A stretch of 35,840 nt of DNA, taken from Rhodocyclaceae bacterium. GTDB taxonomy: Bacteria; Pseudomonadota; Gammaproteobacteria; Burkholderiales; Rhodocyclaceae. The notes below the pieces were generated by a model, which saw nothing but the letters and a program-made list of their open reading frames with translations, did not search any database and was not told where the DNA came from. The stretch spans positions 1-35,840 of the forward strand of contig PMIH01000221.1 in assembly GCA_003158255.1 (NCBI GenBank), read 5' to 3'. Every line of letters begins with the position of its first letter. Within the stretch, counting starts at the first letter, position 1. Below are positions 10,930-35,796 of the stretch, one piece after another. A program made the position numbers and the translations under genes.

Positions 10930-12843
10930 TCAACTCCGTTTCTGATCGCGGGCGTACTGGAGTGGCCCGCCAGTGAAGGGTGCGAAACCCGTGCCGAAAA
11001 TTACACCAGCGTCAGCGAGGTCGGCATCGGCGACGATGCCCGCATCGACCAGTGCGCGGGTGCGATCGATCAGTGGCGTTACCAGCCGATTGGCGAGGCC
11101 CGGCTCCACCCGCTCTGCGGTGGCCTTGGCCGGTTTGCCGTTCGTCCAGACATAGAAGCCCTTGCCGGTCTTCTTGCCGAGGTCGTTGCGACCGACGCGT
11201 TCCGCCAGGCAGCGCGGCGGTTCGGCACCCTCTGCCAGTTGCTTGCCGGCGGCGAAGGCGATGTCGAGCCCGACGGTGTCTGCGAGTTCGATCGGTCCCA
11301 TTGGCATGCCAAAAGCGAGCATGGCCTCGTCCACCGTTTCGGCAGTGATGCCCTCGTCGACGCAGCGCATCGCTTCCAGCATGTAGGGACCGAGTACGGC
11401 ATTGACCAGGAAGCCGGGCGCGCTCTTCACCGGCAGCGGCAGCTTGTCGATCTGGCGCACGAAGGCGGCGGCGCGGGCGAGCATTTCCGGATCGGCGCCC
11501 TTGGCTTCAACGACTTCCACGAGTGGCATCATCGCCACTGGATTGAAGAAGTGGATACCGACCAGACGCGCCGGGTTCTTCATCGTCGTGGCGATGTCTT
11601 CCAGGCGCAGGCTGGAGGTGTTGCTGGCCAGCACGGCATCCGGTTTCATCTTCGCTTCCAGTGCCGCGAGCAGGTCGCGCTTGGCTTCCAGGTCCTCGAA
11701 GATGGCCTCGATCACCACATCGGCGCGGGCGGCGCCGTGACCTTCCGGATCGGGGATCAGCCGGTCGAGTGCCGAGCGGCGCAGCAGCTTGTCCTTGATG
11801 CGGCGCTCGTAGAGCTTGCTGGCGCGGCCGATGGCGGCAGCAACGCGCTCCAGCGACTGGTCCTGCAAGGTTACCGTCAGTCCGCGCATGGCCGCCACGG
11901 CGGCGATGTCGCCACCCATGACGCCGGCGCCGACCACGTGCAGATGGCGTGCCGCGACGGCTGACTCTTTGCCGAAGGCCTTCAGGCGATCCTGCAGGAA
12001 GAAGACGCGCACCAGGTTCTTCGCCGTGGCCGAGCGGACGATGCTGTCCACGAACTCGGGCGATGCCAGCGCGTTGCCGTTGTGTTTCGCCCAACAATCG
12101 ATGATCGCGTAGGGCGCCGGATAGTGCTCCGGCCGGGCGCGCTTGGCGACCTGCTTGCGCGCCTGCGAAGCGACGAAGAACTTTAGCGGACCATTCATCA
12201 GTCTGTGCAGCAGCGGTCGCGATTTGCGCGGACGGCCGGAGAGCAGCAGCCCGCGGGCGGTGGCGTCGGCGACGCGCGGCGGCGCGCATTCGTCGGCCAG
12301 GCCCATGCGCTTCGCCTTGCGGGCGTCGATGTTGCGGCCGCTGAGCATCATGTCCAGCGCCTCGGGTGGTGAAACGCGTTCCGGTAGTCTCTTCATGCCG
12401 CCCCAGCCGGGGAAGATGCCCAGCATCACTTCGGGCAGCGCCATCTTCGTGGACGGCTCGTCGACCGCCACGATGTAACGGCAGGCCAGCGAGAGTTCGG
12501 TGCCGCCGCCCATGCAGTGGCCGCGTACCAGCGCCAGTGTCGGGTAGCGGACGGCGGCCAGGCGGTTGTAGAGGTCCCAACCGCGTGCGACCAGGGCCCG
12601 TGCCGATTCGGCGCTGTCGAGGCGCGCGAACTCCTCGATGTCGGCGCCGGCGATGAAGCCGGCGGCCTTGCCGGAGCGGAAAATCAGTCCCTTCGGCGGC
12701 TCGCGGTCGCATTCGTCGAGCAATTGCGCAAGCTCCACCAGCACGTCGGCCGAGAGGATGTTGGTACTGGCGCCGGCCTTGTCCAGCGTCGCCCAGGCGA
12801 TGCCGTCGGCGTCGCGTTCGAGTTTCCAGTGGTTCAGGTTCAT
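10930..12843 (-). CDS. fadJ: Multifunctional enoyl-CoA hydratase / 3-hydroxyacyl-CoA dehydrogenase (FadB/FadJ-like alpha subunit)
   Basis: N-terminal crotonase (GHCMGGGTELSLACRYIVA); HAD Rossmann (LHVVGAGVMGGDIAAVAAMRGL); HFFNPVAMMPLVEVV. Confidence 0.92.
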   Translation of the reverse strand: MNLNHWKLERDADGIAWATLDKAGASTNILSADVLVELAQLLDECDREPPKGLIFRSGKAAGFIAGADIEEFARLDSAESARALVARGWDLYNRLAAVRYPTLALVRGHCMGGGTELSLACRYIVAVDEPSTKMALPEVMLGIFPGWGGMKRLPERVSPPEALDMMLSGRNIDARKAKRMGLADECAPPRVADATARGLLLSGRPRKSRPLLHRLMNGPLKFFVASQARKQVAKRARPEHYPAPYAIIDCWAKHNGNALASPEFVDSIVRSATAKNLVRVFFLQDRLKAFGKESAVAARHLHVVGAGVMGGDIAAVAAMRGLTVTLQDQSLERVAAAIGRASKLYERRIKDKLLRRSALDRLIPDPEGHGAARADVVIEAIFEDLEAKRDLLAALEAKMKPDAVLASNTSSLRLEDIATTMKNPARLVGIHFFNPVAMMPLVEVVEAKGADPEMLARAAAFVRQIDKLPLPVKSAPGFLVNAVLGPYMLEAMRCVDEGITAETVDEAMLAFGMPMGPIELADTVGLDIAFAAGKQLAEGAEPPRCLAERVGRNDLGKKTGKGFYVWTNGKPAKATAERVEPGLANRLVTPLIDRTRALVDAGIVADADLADAGVIFGTGFAPFTGGPLQYARDQKRS

Positions 12844-14114
12844 GATTTTTCCACCAACATGGCGCCGCCGAGCCCGCCGCCGATGCAGATCGTGGCGATG
12901 CCCTTCTGGCCGGATTGCAAACGGTGCAACACGTGCAGGACGATGCGGGCGCCCGATGCGCCGACCGGGTGGCCGAGGGCGATGGCGCCGCCGTCGGCGT
13001 TTAGCTTGCTGCGGTCGAGCGTGCCCATGGCCTTGTCCAGGCCGAGTTGTTCCTTGCAGTAGGTTTCATCCTCCCAGGCGGCGAGGCAACCGAGCACCTG
13101 CGCCGCGAAGGCTTCGTTGATTTCCCAGGCGTCGACATCGTTGAGACCGAGGCCGTGGCGTTGCAGGATCGGTGTCGAGGCGTGTACCGGCCCGAGGCCC
13201 ATCTGTGCCGGATCGAGGCCGGCCCATTCGCTGTCGGTGATTTGGCCGAGCGGCTTCAGGTTCCAGCGCTTCACCGCCTCTTCGGAAGCGAGCAGCAACA
13301 GTGCCGCGCCGTCGGTGATCTGCGAGCTGTTGCCGGCGGTGACGCTGCCGTAGGGCTTGTCGAACACCGGCCTCAGCTTGCCCAGTTTGTCGGGTGTCGA
13401 GTCGGTGCGCACGCCGTCGTCCTCGGCGTAGACGTTGCCCTTGCTGTCCACCAGCGGCACGATCTCGCCATAGTGGCCGGCTGCGCGACCCGCGGTGACG
13501 CGGAGGTGGCTTTCGGCGGAGAACTCGTCCATCGTTCGCCGCGAAATGCCGAACTTCCACGCCAGGTTCTCTGCCGTCTGGCCCATCATCAGTCCGACCA
13601 CTGGGTCGGTGAGCCCCTTGACGATGCCGAGTACGGGTGCGAGAAAGCCTAGTCTGAAGCCGCGCAGCGCGGCGAGCTTCTGGCCGACGGTCTTCGTTGC
13701 GTACCAGCCGGACAGCCACTGCACCATCGCGTCCGAGAACAGCAGCGGCGCGCGCGACAGCGCGTCGGTGCCACCGGCCAGTACCAGTTGCGAACGGCCG
13801 CACTGGATGTTGGCGATGGCGGAGTCGAGCGCCTGCATGCCGCTGGCGCAGTTGCGCATCACCGTCCAGCCAGGCACCTTGTCGCCACAGCCGAGTCGCA
13901 AGGCGAGCACGCGGCCAATGTTCACCTCGTCGGGTGAGGGCGAGGCGCAACCGAGGATGACTTCGTCTAGATCGCTGGGCGCGAACGGCTGGCGCAGCAG
14001 CAGGGCGCGCCCCGCCTGCACGGCGAGATCGGAAGCGGCGAAGGGGCCGGGTGTGTTCTTCGACTTGAGGAAGGGCGTACGCGCCCCGTCGACGATGTAG
14101 ACCGGTGCATTCAT
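12840..14114 (-). CDS. fadI: Acetyl-CoA C-acyltransferase (thiolase, FadI-like)
   Basis: MRNCASGMQALDSAI active-site Cys; NADGGAIALGHPVGASGARIVLHVL; CIGGGLGGAMLVE. Confidence 0.93.
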   Translation of the reverse strand: MNAPVYIVDGARTPFLKSKNTPGPFAASDLAVQAGRALLLRQPFAPSDLDEVILGCASPSPDEVNIGRVLALRLGCGDKVPGWTVMRNCASGMQALDSAIANIQCGRSQLVLAGGTDALSRAPLLFSDAMVQWLSGWYATKTVGQKLAALRGFRLGFLAPVLGIVKGLTDPVVGLMMGQTAENLAWKFGISRRTMDEFSAESHLRVTAGRAAGHYGEIVPLVDSKGNVYAEDDGVRTDSTPDKLGKLRPVFDKPYGSVTAGNSSQITDGAALLLLASEEAVKRWNLKPLGQITDSEWAGLDPAQMGLGPVHASTPILQRHGLGLNDVDAWEINEAFAAQVLGCLAAWEDETYCKEQLGLDKAMGTLDRSKLNADGGAIALGHPVGASGARIVLHVLHRLQSGQKGIATICIGGGLGGAMLVEKS

Positions 14115-16468
14115 CAGGCGGCCCGCCTTTCCTGTTGTGGCTTGGCGGCACTGGCGACGCCGAAGTCGTAGGGGAAATCATCGACACGAATGACGATGTC
14201 GCGTAGCGCGTTGCGACGGCGCATGACTTCGTACTCCGGCGCCGTGATGACGCCCGTTTCGAAGGCAACGGTGGCGATGTCGCGCACGTTGGCCCTCGGG
14301 TTGCTGTCGAAGCGGCCTTCGCGATCGGCTTGGCGGATCTTCGCTTCGATCGGTTCGGCTTCCACGGTGGCCGCAAGCGCCTGTTCCAGCGCGCCGACCG
14401 GTTCGTCGGACGTTGCGGGCAAATAGCAGTCGGCAGTCAGCCGTTCCCGTGCGGGGCAAGGCGAGATCAGTATCTTCGCTACCTGATGGCCGACCTTGTC
14501 CGACGGCACGACGTAGGGATGGCCGAACGGGAAGATGACCTTGTGCAGCCAGAAGGCGAAGAAGCGGTTCGGGTAGTTGGCGATGACGCCCTCGAAGGCT
14601 TCCTGCGCCCGGTACATGCAGTCCCAGACCGCCCAGTGCATCAGCGGCGCATCGTCCTGCTGGCGACCATCGGCTTCGTAGCGCTTGAGCGTGGCGGACA
14701 TCAGGTACATCTGGGCCAGCACGTCGCCGAGGCGGGCAGAGAGCTTCTCTTTGCGCTTGAGGTCGCCGCCCATGACCATCATGGAAATGTCGGCGATGTA
14801 GGCGAACGCCGCAGAGAAGCGCGTCAGTTGCTGGTAGTAGCGGCGCGTTTCCGGCGCCACGTCGGGCACCGACACGGTGTGCGAGCCGGTGAGGCCGTAC
14901 CACAGCGTGCGCAGCGCATTCTTGATCGTATAGCCGATGTGGCCGAACAGCGCGGCGTCGAAATCGACCAGACCCTTCCGCGAATCCGGATCATTCACTG
15001 CATGCATTTCCGGCAGTACGTAGGGGTGGCAGCGCACGGCGCCCTGGCCGAAGATGATCAGGCTGCGCGTGAGGATGTTCGCGCCTTCGACAGTGATGGC
15101 GACCGGTAGTTGTTGGTAGGCGCGGCCAAGGAAGTTCGATGGCCCGAGGCAGATGCCCTTGCCGCCGATGATGTCCATGCCGTCGTTGACCACCTGGCGG
15201 GCACGCTCGGTGACGTGGTACTTGGCGATGGCGGAGACCACCGACGGCTTTTCGCCGAGGTCGACCGCGCCGGCGGTCATGACGCGAGCTGCGTCCATCA
15301 GGTAGGTGTTGGCGCCGATGCGCGTCAGCGGTTCCTCGATGCCCTCGAAGCGGCCGATGGCGAGGTTGAACTGGCTGCGCACGCGGGCATAGGCACCGAC
15401 CGCGCGCGCGGTCATCTTGGCCATGCCGGTGTTGGAGGCGGGCAGCGAGATCGAACGGCCGGCGGCGAGACATTCCATCAGCATGCGCCAGCCCTGACCG
15501 GCCATGGCCGGGCCGCCGATGATGAAGTCGAGCGGCATGAACACGTCCTTGCCGCGCGTCGGGCCGGTGACGAAGACGGCATTGAGCGGCAGGTGGCGAT
15601 TGCCGGTTTCCACGCCCGGATGGTCGTAGGGCACCAGCGCGCAGGTGATGCCGATATCCTTCTTGTTGCCCAGCAGGCCATCGGGATCGTACAAACGGAT
15701 GGCGAGGCCGAGGATGGTGCACACCGGCGCCAACGTGATGTAGCGCTTGTCCCAAGTGACGCGCATGCCGAGTACTTCCTTGCCCTGATACATGCCATTG
15801 CAGACGATGCCGCTGTCGGGAATCGAGGCGGCGTCGGAACCGGCCCAGGGCGAGGTGAGTGCGAAGGCCGGCACTTCCAGGCCCTTGGCCAGGCGCGGCA
15901 GATAGTGGTTCTTCTGCTCGTCGGTGCCGTAATGGAGAAGCAGTTCGGCCGGGCCGAGCGAGTTCGGCACCATCACCGAAACGGCCAGCGCCGATGAACG
16001 CGTGGACAACTTCATCACCACCTGCGAATGAGCGTAGGCGGAAAACTCCAGGCCGCCATACTTCTTCGGGATGATCATGCCCAGGAAGCCCTTGTCCTTG
16101 ATGTAGCGCCAGGTTTCCGGCGAGAGATCGTATTGCTCGTGGGAGACCTTCCAGTCGTCGACCAGCCGGCAGGCTTCGCTCGTCTCGTTGTCGAGGAAGG
16201 ATTGCTCCTCGGTGGTCATCTTCGGCGTCGGCAAGTCGAGCAGCTTCTGCCAGTCCGGATTGCCGCGGAACAGCTCGCCGTCCCACCAGACGGTGCCGGC
16301 TTCCAGCGCTTCGCGCTCGGTATCGGACATCGACGGCAGGATGCGCTTGAACAGCGCGTAGATATGGCGCGAAATCAGTGCGCGACGTAGCGGCGGCAGG
16401 ACGAGGACGATGACAAGCGCCAAAGTCAGTGCTGACGGCACGCCAATAATGATCATGGAAGCAGTCAT
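14114..16468 (-). CDS. fadE: Acyl-CoA dehydrogenase FadE (long form)
   Basis: N-terminal TM; FALTSPWAGSDAASIPDSG; GRSISLPASNTGMAK; overall 784 aa FadE architecture; start ATG 16468 overlaps the TetR stop (ATGA). Confidence 0.93.
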   Translation of the reverse strand: MTASMIIIGVPSALTLALVIVLVLPPLRRALISRHIYALFKRILPSMSDTEREALEAGTVWWDGELFRGNPDWQKLLDLPTPKMTTEEQSFLDNETSEACRLVDDWKVSHEQYDLSPETWRYIKDKGFLGMIIPKKYGGLEFSAYAHSQVVMKLSTRSSALAVSVMVPNSLGPAELLLHYGTDEQKNHYLPRLAKGLEVPAFALTSPWAGSDAASIPDSGIVCNGMYQGKEVLGMRVTWDKRYITLAPVCTILGLAIRLYDPDGLLGNKKDIGITCALVPYDHPGVETGNRHLPLNAVFVTGPTRGKDVFMPLDFIIGGPAMAGQGWRMLMECLAAGRSISLPASNTGMAKMTARAVGAYARVRSQFNLAIGRFEGIEEPLTRIGANTYLMDAARVMTAGAVDLGEKPSVVSAIAKYHVTERARQVVNDGMDIIGGKGICLGPSNFLGRAYQQLPVAITVEGANILTRSLIIFGQGAVRCHPYVLPEMHAVNDPDSRKGLVDFDAALFGHIGYTIKNALRTLWYGLTGSHTVSVPDVAPETRRYYQQLTRFSAAFAYIADISMMVMGGDLKRKEKLSARLGDVLAQMYLMSATLKRYEADGRQQDDAPLMHWAVWDCMYRAQEAFEGVIANYPNRFFAFWLHKVIFPFGHPYVVPSDKVGHQVAKILISPCPARERLTADCYLPATSDEPVGALEQALAATVEAEPIEAKIRQADREGRFDSNPRANVRDIATVAFETGVITAPEYEVMRRRNALRDIVIRVDDFPYDFGVASAAKPQQERRAA
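16419..16445 (+). repeat. Possible diverged copy of the 27-bp repeat inside the 5' end of fadE
   Basis: GCCAAAGTCAGTGCTGACGGCACGCCA, 21/27 to copy 2; reads GVPSALTL in the fadE frame, the same frame as the lpxH copy. Confidence 0.4.
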
Positions 16469-20663: not shown

Positions 20664-20963
20664 TCAGCCGCCACCCCGGTGCATGGCGAGGTCCATGCGC
20701 GCCAGCAGCGCCACCCGTTGTTCCGCCGAACCAGCCGTCATGCGAAGGCGGACTTTCATGCGTGGCATGTTCAGTAGCGCGATCACTCGCGGCGTTATTA
20801 TCTCCAGCGCGACTTCCATCGCCGCCTGGCCATCATCGACATGCAGAATCCCGTTGCGCTCCGTCACCCTGCCCGGAAACGCCAGACCCAGCCCGTGCCG
20901 GAATTCCTCGGGCGTGGTCCAGACTTCGCGTTCCACGACTTCGGGCGATTGTGGGGCGGGCAT
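20664..20963 (-). CDS. Hypothetical protein (99 aa)
   Basis: Open frame MPAPQSPEVVEREVWTTPEEFRHGLGLAFPGRVTERNGILHVDDGQ..., amphipathic and plausible; tightly convergent with rpoS. Confidence 0.5.
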   Translation of the reverse strand: MPAPQSPEVVEREVWTTPEEFRHGLGLAFPGRVTERNGILHVDDGQAAMEVALEIITPRVIALLNMPRMKVRLRMTAGSAEQRVALLARMDLAMHRGGG

Positions 20964-26939: not shown

Positions 26940-26966
26940 TGGCGTACCACCATGACTGACTTTCGC
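26940..26966 (-). repeat. Dispersed 27-bp repeat, copy 1 (26/27 to copy 2)
   Basis: Minus strand GCGAAAGTCAGTCATGGTGGTACGCCA. Confidence 0.9.
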
Positions 26967-29112: not shown

Positions 29113-29201
29113 TCTGCGTTCTCCTTGTTGTCTGGTGAGAATGCTAGCAGAGAGCGTCGCGGCGGCTTGTGACGACTGACGATTGAGCAGTGGGCGCAAT
29201 G

Positions 29202-29228
29202 GCGAAAGTCAGTCGTGGTGGTACGCCA
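29202..29228 (+). repeat. Dispersed 27-bp repeat, copy 2 (reference copy)
   Basis: GCGAAAGTCAGTCGTGGTGGTACGCCA. Confidence 0.9.
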
Positions 29229-33195: not shown

Positions 33196-33222
33196 GACAA
33201 AATCAGTCGTAGCGGTACGCCG
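33196..33222 (+). repeat. Dispersed 27-bp repeat, diverged copy 3
   Basis: GACAAAATCAGTCGTAGCGGTACGCCG, 21/27 to copy 2; lies between the recQ stop and the GNAT start. Confidence 0.7.
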
Positions 33223-33235
33223 CCACGAGGTCGGG

Positions 33236-35058
<1,823 letters not shown>

Positions 35059-35062
<4 letters not shown>

Positions 35063-35796
35063 TCGTCGATGGTCAGCAAGTGGCAGCCGTTCGCGTCGAC
35101 CGCCAGCGCGTTGCCGGTGGCGTGCCAGTCGCCGAGTACCCAGCGTTCGCAGGCGCGGCCGTCGACGACATGGTCGTGGCGTGCCTGCCGATGCGTGTGG
35201 CCGTGAATCATGCGGGTGACGCCATGGCGGCGGAAGGCGTCGGCGACGGCGTCGGCGTTGGTGTCCATCAGCGCATACGGCTTGCCGCTCTTTGCCGTCT
35301 CGCTACGTTCGCGGAACTCCTCGATCTTCACCTTGCGCTCGGCGAGCGGCAGGGCGAGGAATTCCCGCTGCCATGCCGGGTCGCGCACGAGCGCGCGGAC
35401 GGCCTGATAGTCGGCGTCGTCGGTGCACAGCGTGTCGCCATGCATGAGCAACGTCGGCGTGCCGGCGATGTCGACGACGGTCGGGTCGGCGATCAAAGTC
35501 AGTCGCGACGGTACGCCAAATAGATTGCCGATCAGGAAGTCGCGATTGCCGGCCATGAAGAAGATCTGCGTGCCGGCGTCGGCCAGGTCGGCCAGTGCGG
35601 CGCCGATGCCGGCATTGAACGGATCGGCGCGGTCGTCGTCGCCGGCCCAGGCATCGAAGAGGTCGCCGAGGATGTAGAGCGCCTGCGCGGTGCGCGCGGG
35701 ACCGGCGAGAAAGCGAAGAAAGAGATTCGCCGTTTCCGGCCTGCGCGCCGAGAGGTGCAGGTCGGAAACGAAGAGCGTCGGCAAACGACTCAGCAA
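35059..35796 (-). CDS. lpxH: UDP-2,3-diacylglucosamine diphosphatase LpxH
   Basis: [67 protein letters not shown] overlap with recQ. Confidence 0.96.
35492..35518 (+). repeat. Dispersed 27-bp repeat, diverged copy 4, inside lpxH
   Basis: ATCAAAGTCAGTCGCGACGGTACGCCA, 21/27 to copy 2; reads GVPSRLTL in the lpxH frame. Confidence 0.65.

Follow-up and report, generated by a model that had tools for sequence, protein, structure and literature searches.

The dispersed repeat found in the window, the whole 35,840-nucleotide stretch of a Rhodocyclaceae contig analysed here, belongs to a genome-wide family of sites whose unit is a sharp, non-palindromic and bipartite 24-mer, AAAGTCAG-N10-ACGCCR. By analogy with the signals through which Neisseria and Haemophilus (families Neisseriaceae and Pasteurellaceae) recognise DNA of their own kind, we consider it probable that this repeat acts as a DNA watermark of the uptake-sequence type, a recognition site for DNA uptake.

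Within the window, the copies at 29202–29228 (+) and 26940–26966 (−) are identical at 26 of 27 positions, as an earlier note on this DNA had stated, and 100 shuffles of the window give no such pair. The diverged copies described there at 16419, 33196 and 35492 (all +) are also sound: each differs from the 27-mer at six positions and all score far above the matrix threshold. A genome-wide matrix scan (score threshold 7.5) places seven strong and two weak copies in the window (Table 1); the earlier count of four to five was of real copies but missed two, at 11945–11968 (−) and 33266–33289 (−). The 27-bp unit is likewise a real repeat, but the conserved unit is 24 bp long (29205–29228) and the leading GCG lies outside it. 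Three of the copies first described do lie in 5′ regions, but those at 11945, 16422, 33266 and 35495 are inside genes, so the location is not purely 5′-regulatory. The weak copy at 29160 is possibly the decayed inverted partner of the 29205 copy that it faces, and the one at 20733 may be a chance match. An Rfam search of the window gave no match.

Table 1. Copies of the 24-bp motif in the window
Feature	Position	Strand	Score	Context
24-bp motif, perfect consensus	29205..29228	+	42.0	0 mismatches to core pattern; between OYE gene and ATP-grasp-like gene
24-bp motif	26940..26963	-	38.4	Upstream of ECF sigma factor gene (neighbour: sigma70 r2/r4 domains)
Motif in lpxH-like CDS (35059-35796, -)	35495..35518	+	36.0	Antisense; encodes GVPSRLT; PF00149
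Motif between recQ and GNAT gene	33199..33222	+	33.2	
Motif in 3-hydroxyacyl-CoA dehydrogenase/enoyl-CoA hydratase (fadB-type multifunctional) gene (10930-12843, -)	11945..11968	-	31.7	Sense; gene assigned by Pfam
Motif, N-terminal end of acyl-CoA dehydrogenase gene (14114-16456, -)	16422..16445	+	29.1	Antisense; gene assigned by Pfam
Motif in recQ (33236-35062, -)	33266..33289	-	23.9	Sense; encodes AKVSRYGTA in HRDC domain (PF00570, residues 539-604)
Weak copy	20733..20756	-	14.4	Surrounding 90-aa ORF without Pfam match
Weak degenerate copy facing 29205 copy	29160..29183	-	13.7	Little above threshold

The window's assembly (3,454,801 bases, or 3.45 Mb, in 325 contigs; 85% complete) contains 257 forward and 252 reverse copies of the pattern AAAGTCAGTNNNNNNGGTACGCCA when three mismatches or fewer are allowed. 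These 509 copies compare with three for the same pattern read backwards, so the outcome that the earlier note had named as fatal, a copy number at chance level, is not observed. Iterating a matrix on a sample of about 400 kb from the host genome (G000), with the threshold taken from an order-3 Markov shuffle, gives the consensus AAAGTCAG[TC]CGT[GC]G[CT]GGTACGCC[GA] and 102 sites, or 255 per Mb; about 400 kb of a second genome, G073, contains 83 sites, or 211 per Mb. For such comparisons genomes were sampled as stretches, not read whole, gene calls are heuristic and some assemblies are incomplete. The edges of conservation are abrupt: in 39 aligned copies the flanks from −60 to +90 are nearly information-free, except that a G precedes the motif and an A follows it. 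The 24-mer is not markedly palindromic and forms no stable hairpin, in line with the earlier remark that it contains no simple REP hairpin.

Word counts recover the same signal. The top over-represented 9-mer is AAAGTCAGT in G000 (45 occurrences where 0.8 are expected, level with its complement) and in G073 (55 against 0.2), and AAAGTCGGC in G655 (36 against 2.9). Motif-rich genomes also show a large excess of sites at 0–6 mismatches, a range in which permuted motifs yield next to none. Samples of G156 and G572 show neither a 9-mer excess of such a motif nor an excess in the mismatch spectrum; these two genomes are represented by k-mer and mismatch counts only, because the matrix iteration drifted to a meaningless low-information pattern.

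Copies within genes have formed in place. The LpxH proteins of 11 related genomes align without gaps through the site at 35495, where motif-bearing congeners match at 17 of 24 positions, the motif-poor congener G150 at 16, and G572 and members of other genera at 10–13. When every coding site that has a homologue in another sampled genome is considered, the motif is crossed without a gap in 43 of 53 alignments; control positions chosen at random in these proteins give 38 of 45 (gapped, 10/53 versus 7/45). This comparison concerns coding copies only. The lack of insertion relative to homologues shows that coding copies form by substitution rather than transposition, and the excess at 0–6 mismatches agrees with such an origin. 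A mismatch pattern of the same kind led Bakkali (PMC1939737) to infer a gradual origin by point mutation.

By simple self-trained gene calls (genomes 83–84% coding), 51 of the 102 G000 sites fall wholly within genes, with a sense to antisense ratio of 23/28; in G073, 54 of the 83 sites do so, with a ratio of 25/29. Sites are nevertheless enriched between genes (p=3e-10 in G000, p=0.035 in G073), and intergenic copies occur in regions of all types, including convergent ones. Codon phase is biased in G073 for both sense (p=4e-5) and antisense copies (p=9e-5), and in G000 for antisense copies only (p=0.002; sense, p=0.5). A restricted codon phase is expected if the encoded proteins filtered the placements that could be tolerated. 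In G073 there is no replication-strand bias, with 46 sites running with and 37 against the G-rich strand as judged by GC skew, and no clustering at ori or ter. Sites are evenly spread, the variance of the count per 20 kb being below the mean, and closely spaced inverted pairs are rare. Forward and reverse copies are also balanced in number.

The distribution among relatives is patchy. Of the six genomes of the host genus, four (G000, G066, G114 and G180) carry hundreds of exact AAAGTCAG-N10-ACGSCR copies, and the other two, G150 and G572, have only three each. Genus g11, very probably Candidatus Desulfobacillus, has hundreds in nearly all of its genomes, with only five in G156; the motif is also carried by the chromosome of Candidatus Desulfobacillus denitrificans (AP021857). 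Smaller numbers are found in G023 (77) and G655 (58), and controls give about 0. A second version, AAAGTCGGCGCTGGCGGGACGGCA, first found via G655, is abundant in genera g2, g9, g20, g39, g47 and g65; G677 and G710 contain both this version and the AAAGTCAG form. The dialects divide between g1, g11 and g24, with AAAGTCAG, and the six genera just named, with AAAGTCGG-N10-ACGGCR. Both share AAAGTC[A/G]G and ACG[C/G]C, positions 7, 9–18, 22 and 24 vary by genus, and the joint consensus is AAAGTCRG-N10-ACGSCR. In most of genus g20 AAAGTCAG seemed to be absent, and loss was considered; this was rejected because g20 carries the AAAGTCGG dialect. By these patterns, versions of the motif occur in 9 of 68 Rhodocyclaceae genera, with hundreds of copies in most of the nine, and are absent or changed in many others; in some species of motif-bearing genera the motif is switched off. 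In the 369 genomes examined from other families of the class, counts of either version stay at a chance-like 0–3.

Several further observations concern isolated copies and other repeats. Three genomes (G083, G055 and G056) have only 5–10 AAAGTCGG copies, often of perfect consensus and several clustered in short stretches: four of five lie within 41 kb in G083 (C1:1461265-1502243), with similar clusters in G055:C50 and in G056:C104 and C557. These may be imports from motif-rich relatives, usable as tracers of transfer. Lone exact or near-exact consensus copies outside the family (G429, at C2:238553 and C15:11871; G335:C1; G324:C1; G399:C103; G541:C39) possibly reflect horizontal transfer or contamination. 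We also note 40 IMG/VR viral contigs with the exact 23-mer AAAGTCGGCGCTGGCGGGACGGC, nearly always single, some of which may represent prophages together with flanking host DNA; the IMG/VR viral contigs gave no match to the g1 version. The motif-free g11 genome G156 has an over-represented string of its own, ACGTAGGCTGGG-like, with TAGGCTGGG seen 20 times against 0.5 expected. The G023 sample is dominated by GTTTCAATCCTCG-like 9-mers, probably a CRISPR array, and G514 (1.0 Mb, from another family) contains the reversed control pattern 25 times, presumably as an unrelated repeat.

Type IV prepilins were found in all 21 genomes tested, ComP_DUS-family pilins (PF16732) in 32 of 33 irrespective of the motif, and 43 of 46 have ComEC. 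The three genomes in which ComEC was missed are all incomplete assemblies, and one of them is that of the window, at 85% completeness. Motif-free genomes (G156, G572 and G084) likewise carry ComP_DUS pilins, N-methyl prepilins and ComEC, so the presence of none of them separates motif-bearing from motif-free genomes. The motif-rich genome G612 yielded just five N-methyl prepilins, four of which form a cluster, and motif-free G156 has a similar cluster; a comparison of pilins from a partial extraction gave no obvious signature. If a pilin is the receptor, the switch is likely to be a difference in pilin sequence rather than in pilin presence.

The interpretation in the earlier note is partly supported: of its three options, among which uptake sequences did not figure, a genome-wide protein-binding motif fits best. 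The miniature mobile element that it also offered belongs to a wider class of repeats spread by insertion (REP/RAYT, MITE or transposon-end relic), for which high copy number and dispersal speak. We find this highly improbable, since there is no longer unit and no stable hairpin, the flanks are random rather than conserved right up to the 24-mer, the mismatch spectrum is graded, the window has no Rfam match and coding copies align to motif-less orthologues without an insertion. With no insertion of a hairpin or terminal-repeat unit, a mobile repeat is refuted as a general explanation. The remaining option, a shared operator defining a regulon, has the three copies in 5′ regions in its favour, but hundreds of sites (about 210–255 per Mb), of which roughly half or more are intragenic, in both orientations and in convergent intergenic regions too, leave it hardly any room. 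Although site number and placement refute it as a general explanation, single sites could have been co-opted as operators.

There is a small chance that the 24-mer is bound inside the cell by a protein that organises or segregates the chromosome, or by a nucleoid protein, with its sites selected chromosome-wide. The bipartite 24-bp motif does resemble a protein-binding site, and the even spread and intergenic enrichment are in keeping with this role. However, the motif is non-palindromic, its sites show neither GC-skew polarity (46:37) nor ori or ter clustering, loss or change among species of one genus is fast for a housekeeping system, and copies in conserved coding sequence, as in the RecQ HRDC domain, come at some cost to the protein. 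It is quite improbable that the motif is a Chi-like signal or gene-conversion hotspot, spread by recombination that starts at it. Such a hotspot would be genome-wide, in coding and non-coding DNA and formed in place, as observed, but signals of the Chi type are short and follow the direction of replication, and the motif here is about 24 bp long and has lineage dialects. Because it is unoriented, a polar replication signal or a Chi-like signal does not fit.

We favor the interpretation of the repeat as an uptake sequence because it is repeatedly written into tolerant sites in both orientations, with dialects and frequent loss, as are the uptake sequences of the Neisseriaceae and Pasteurellaceae. 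A single short motif is over-represented, its coding copies arise by substitution in place, there is no strand bias and the dialects retain a conserved inner core. Against this reading speak the length and two-block form of the motif, the rarity of close inverted pairs, the pilins and ComEC that do not track the motif, and the negative ComEC result for the window's incomplete assembly. Known uptake sequences are mostly not inverted repeats, have no chromosomal orientation bias, lie in many cases in ORFs and are enriched in non-coding DNA (PMC1939737), and dialects are described in the Neisseriaceae (PMC3630211). According to a 2025 paper (PMC12616744), these two families are the only ones known to have uptake sequences, and among open-access papers we found no report of uptake sequences in Rhodocyclaceae or of the motif string. 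It is fairly likely that the Rhodocyclaceae have a third, independently evolved system, in which a dimeric or two-site receptor on the cell surface reads a 24-bp bipartite signal with a spacing of about 1.5 helical turns between its two blocks, and that this system has three or more dialects and has repeatedly been lost or altered among sister species.

In such a system, a cell-surface DNA receptor, probably borne on a type IV pilus, would prefer the site AAAGTC[A/G]G-N10-ACG[C/G]C[A/G] during natural transformation. DNA with good matches would be taken up and recombined more often, so that point mutations and allele replacements would add further matches at any place the proteins can accept (molecular drive), and the motif would drift into lineage dialects. 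That uptake is the driving process and a pilin the receptor is what we infer from the genomic pattern. If this is correct, an unrelated third case would provide an independent test of how uptake systems originate and how receptor and motif co-evolve, a test to which multiple dialects and sister species with gain or loss would add value. It would also test whether a bias in uptake is enough by itself to remodel hundreds of sites in a genome, including conserved protein segments. Natural transformability would be suggested for a family rich in uncultured environmental members, and the motif would be a sequence tag for delivering DNA to Rhodocyclaceae laboratory strains.

How, then, does the motif compare with known systems? 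Like Chi, KOPS and AIMS motifs, it is short, over-represented and chromosome-wide, but those are about 8 bp and polar, whereas the Rhodocyclaceae motif is about 24 bp and unoriented. REP/RAYT elements also supply hundreds of short repeats per genome; REPs, however, are hairpins that insert and lie almost only between genes, and neither hairpin, insertion nor intergenic confinement is seen here. The motif is longer than the 9–12 nt quoted for DUS and USS and has two conserved blocks. Extended USS are also long, but the USS flanks of H. influenzae are A/T-rich tracts, whereas the second specified block here is G/C-rich. The Pasteurellaceae USS, for which ComN/PpdA has been proposed as a candidate receptor (PMC12616744), differs in its core (AAGTGCGGT or ACAAGCGGT) and belongs to another bacterial family, but resembles the motif in evolving in place by point mutation, with many copies in ORFs and no orientation bias (PMC1939737). 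The Neisseriaceae DUS, with the receptor ComP, is unrelated in sequence and 10–12 bp long rather than 24 bp and bipartite; the consensus AAAGTCRG-N10-ACGSCR does not contain DUS proper, a GCCGTCTGAA-type 10-mer with core CTG. Several Neisseria have about 1900–2200 DUS copies per genome, above the roughly 210–270 sites per Mb of the Rhodocyclaceae motif, and closely spaced inverted pairs, rare here, are known for DUS. In other respects the two agree: DUS, too, is non-palindromic, occurs in hundreds to thousands of copies in coding and non-coding DNA, differs in dialect between related genera and is absent from some members of its family (PMC3630211).
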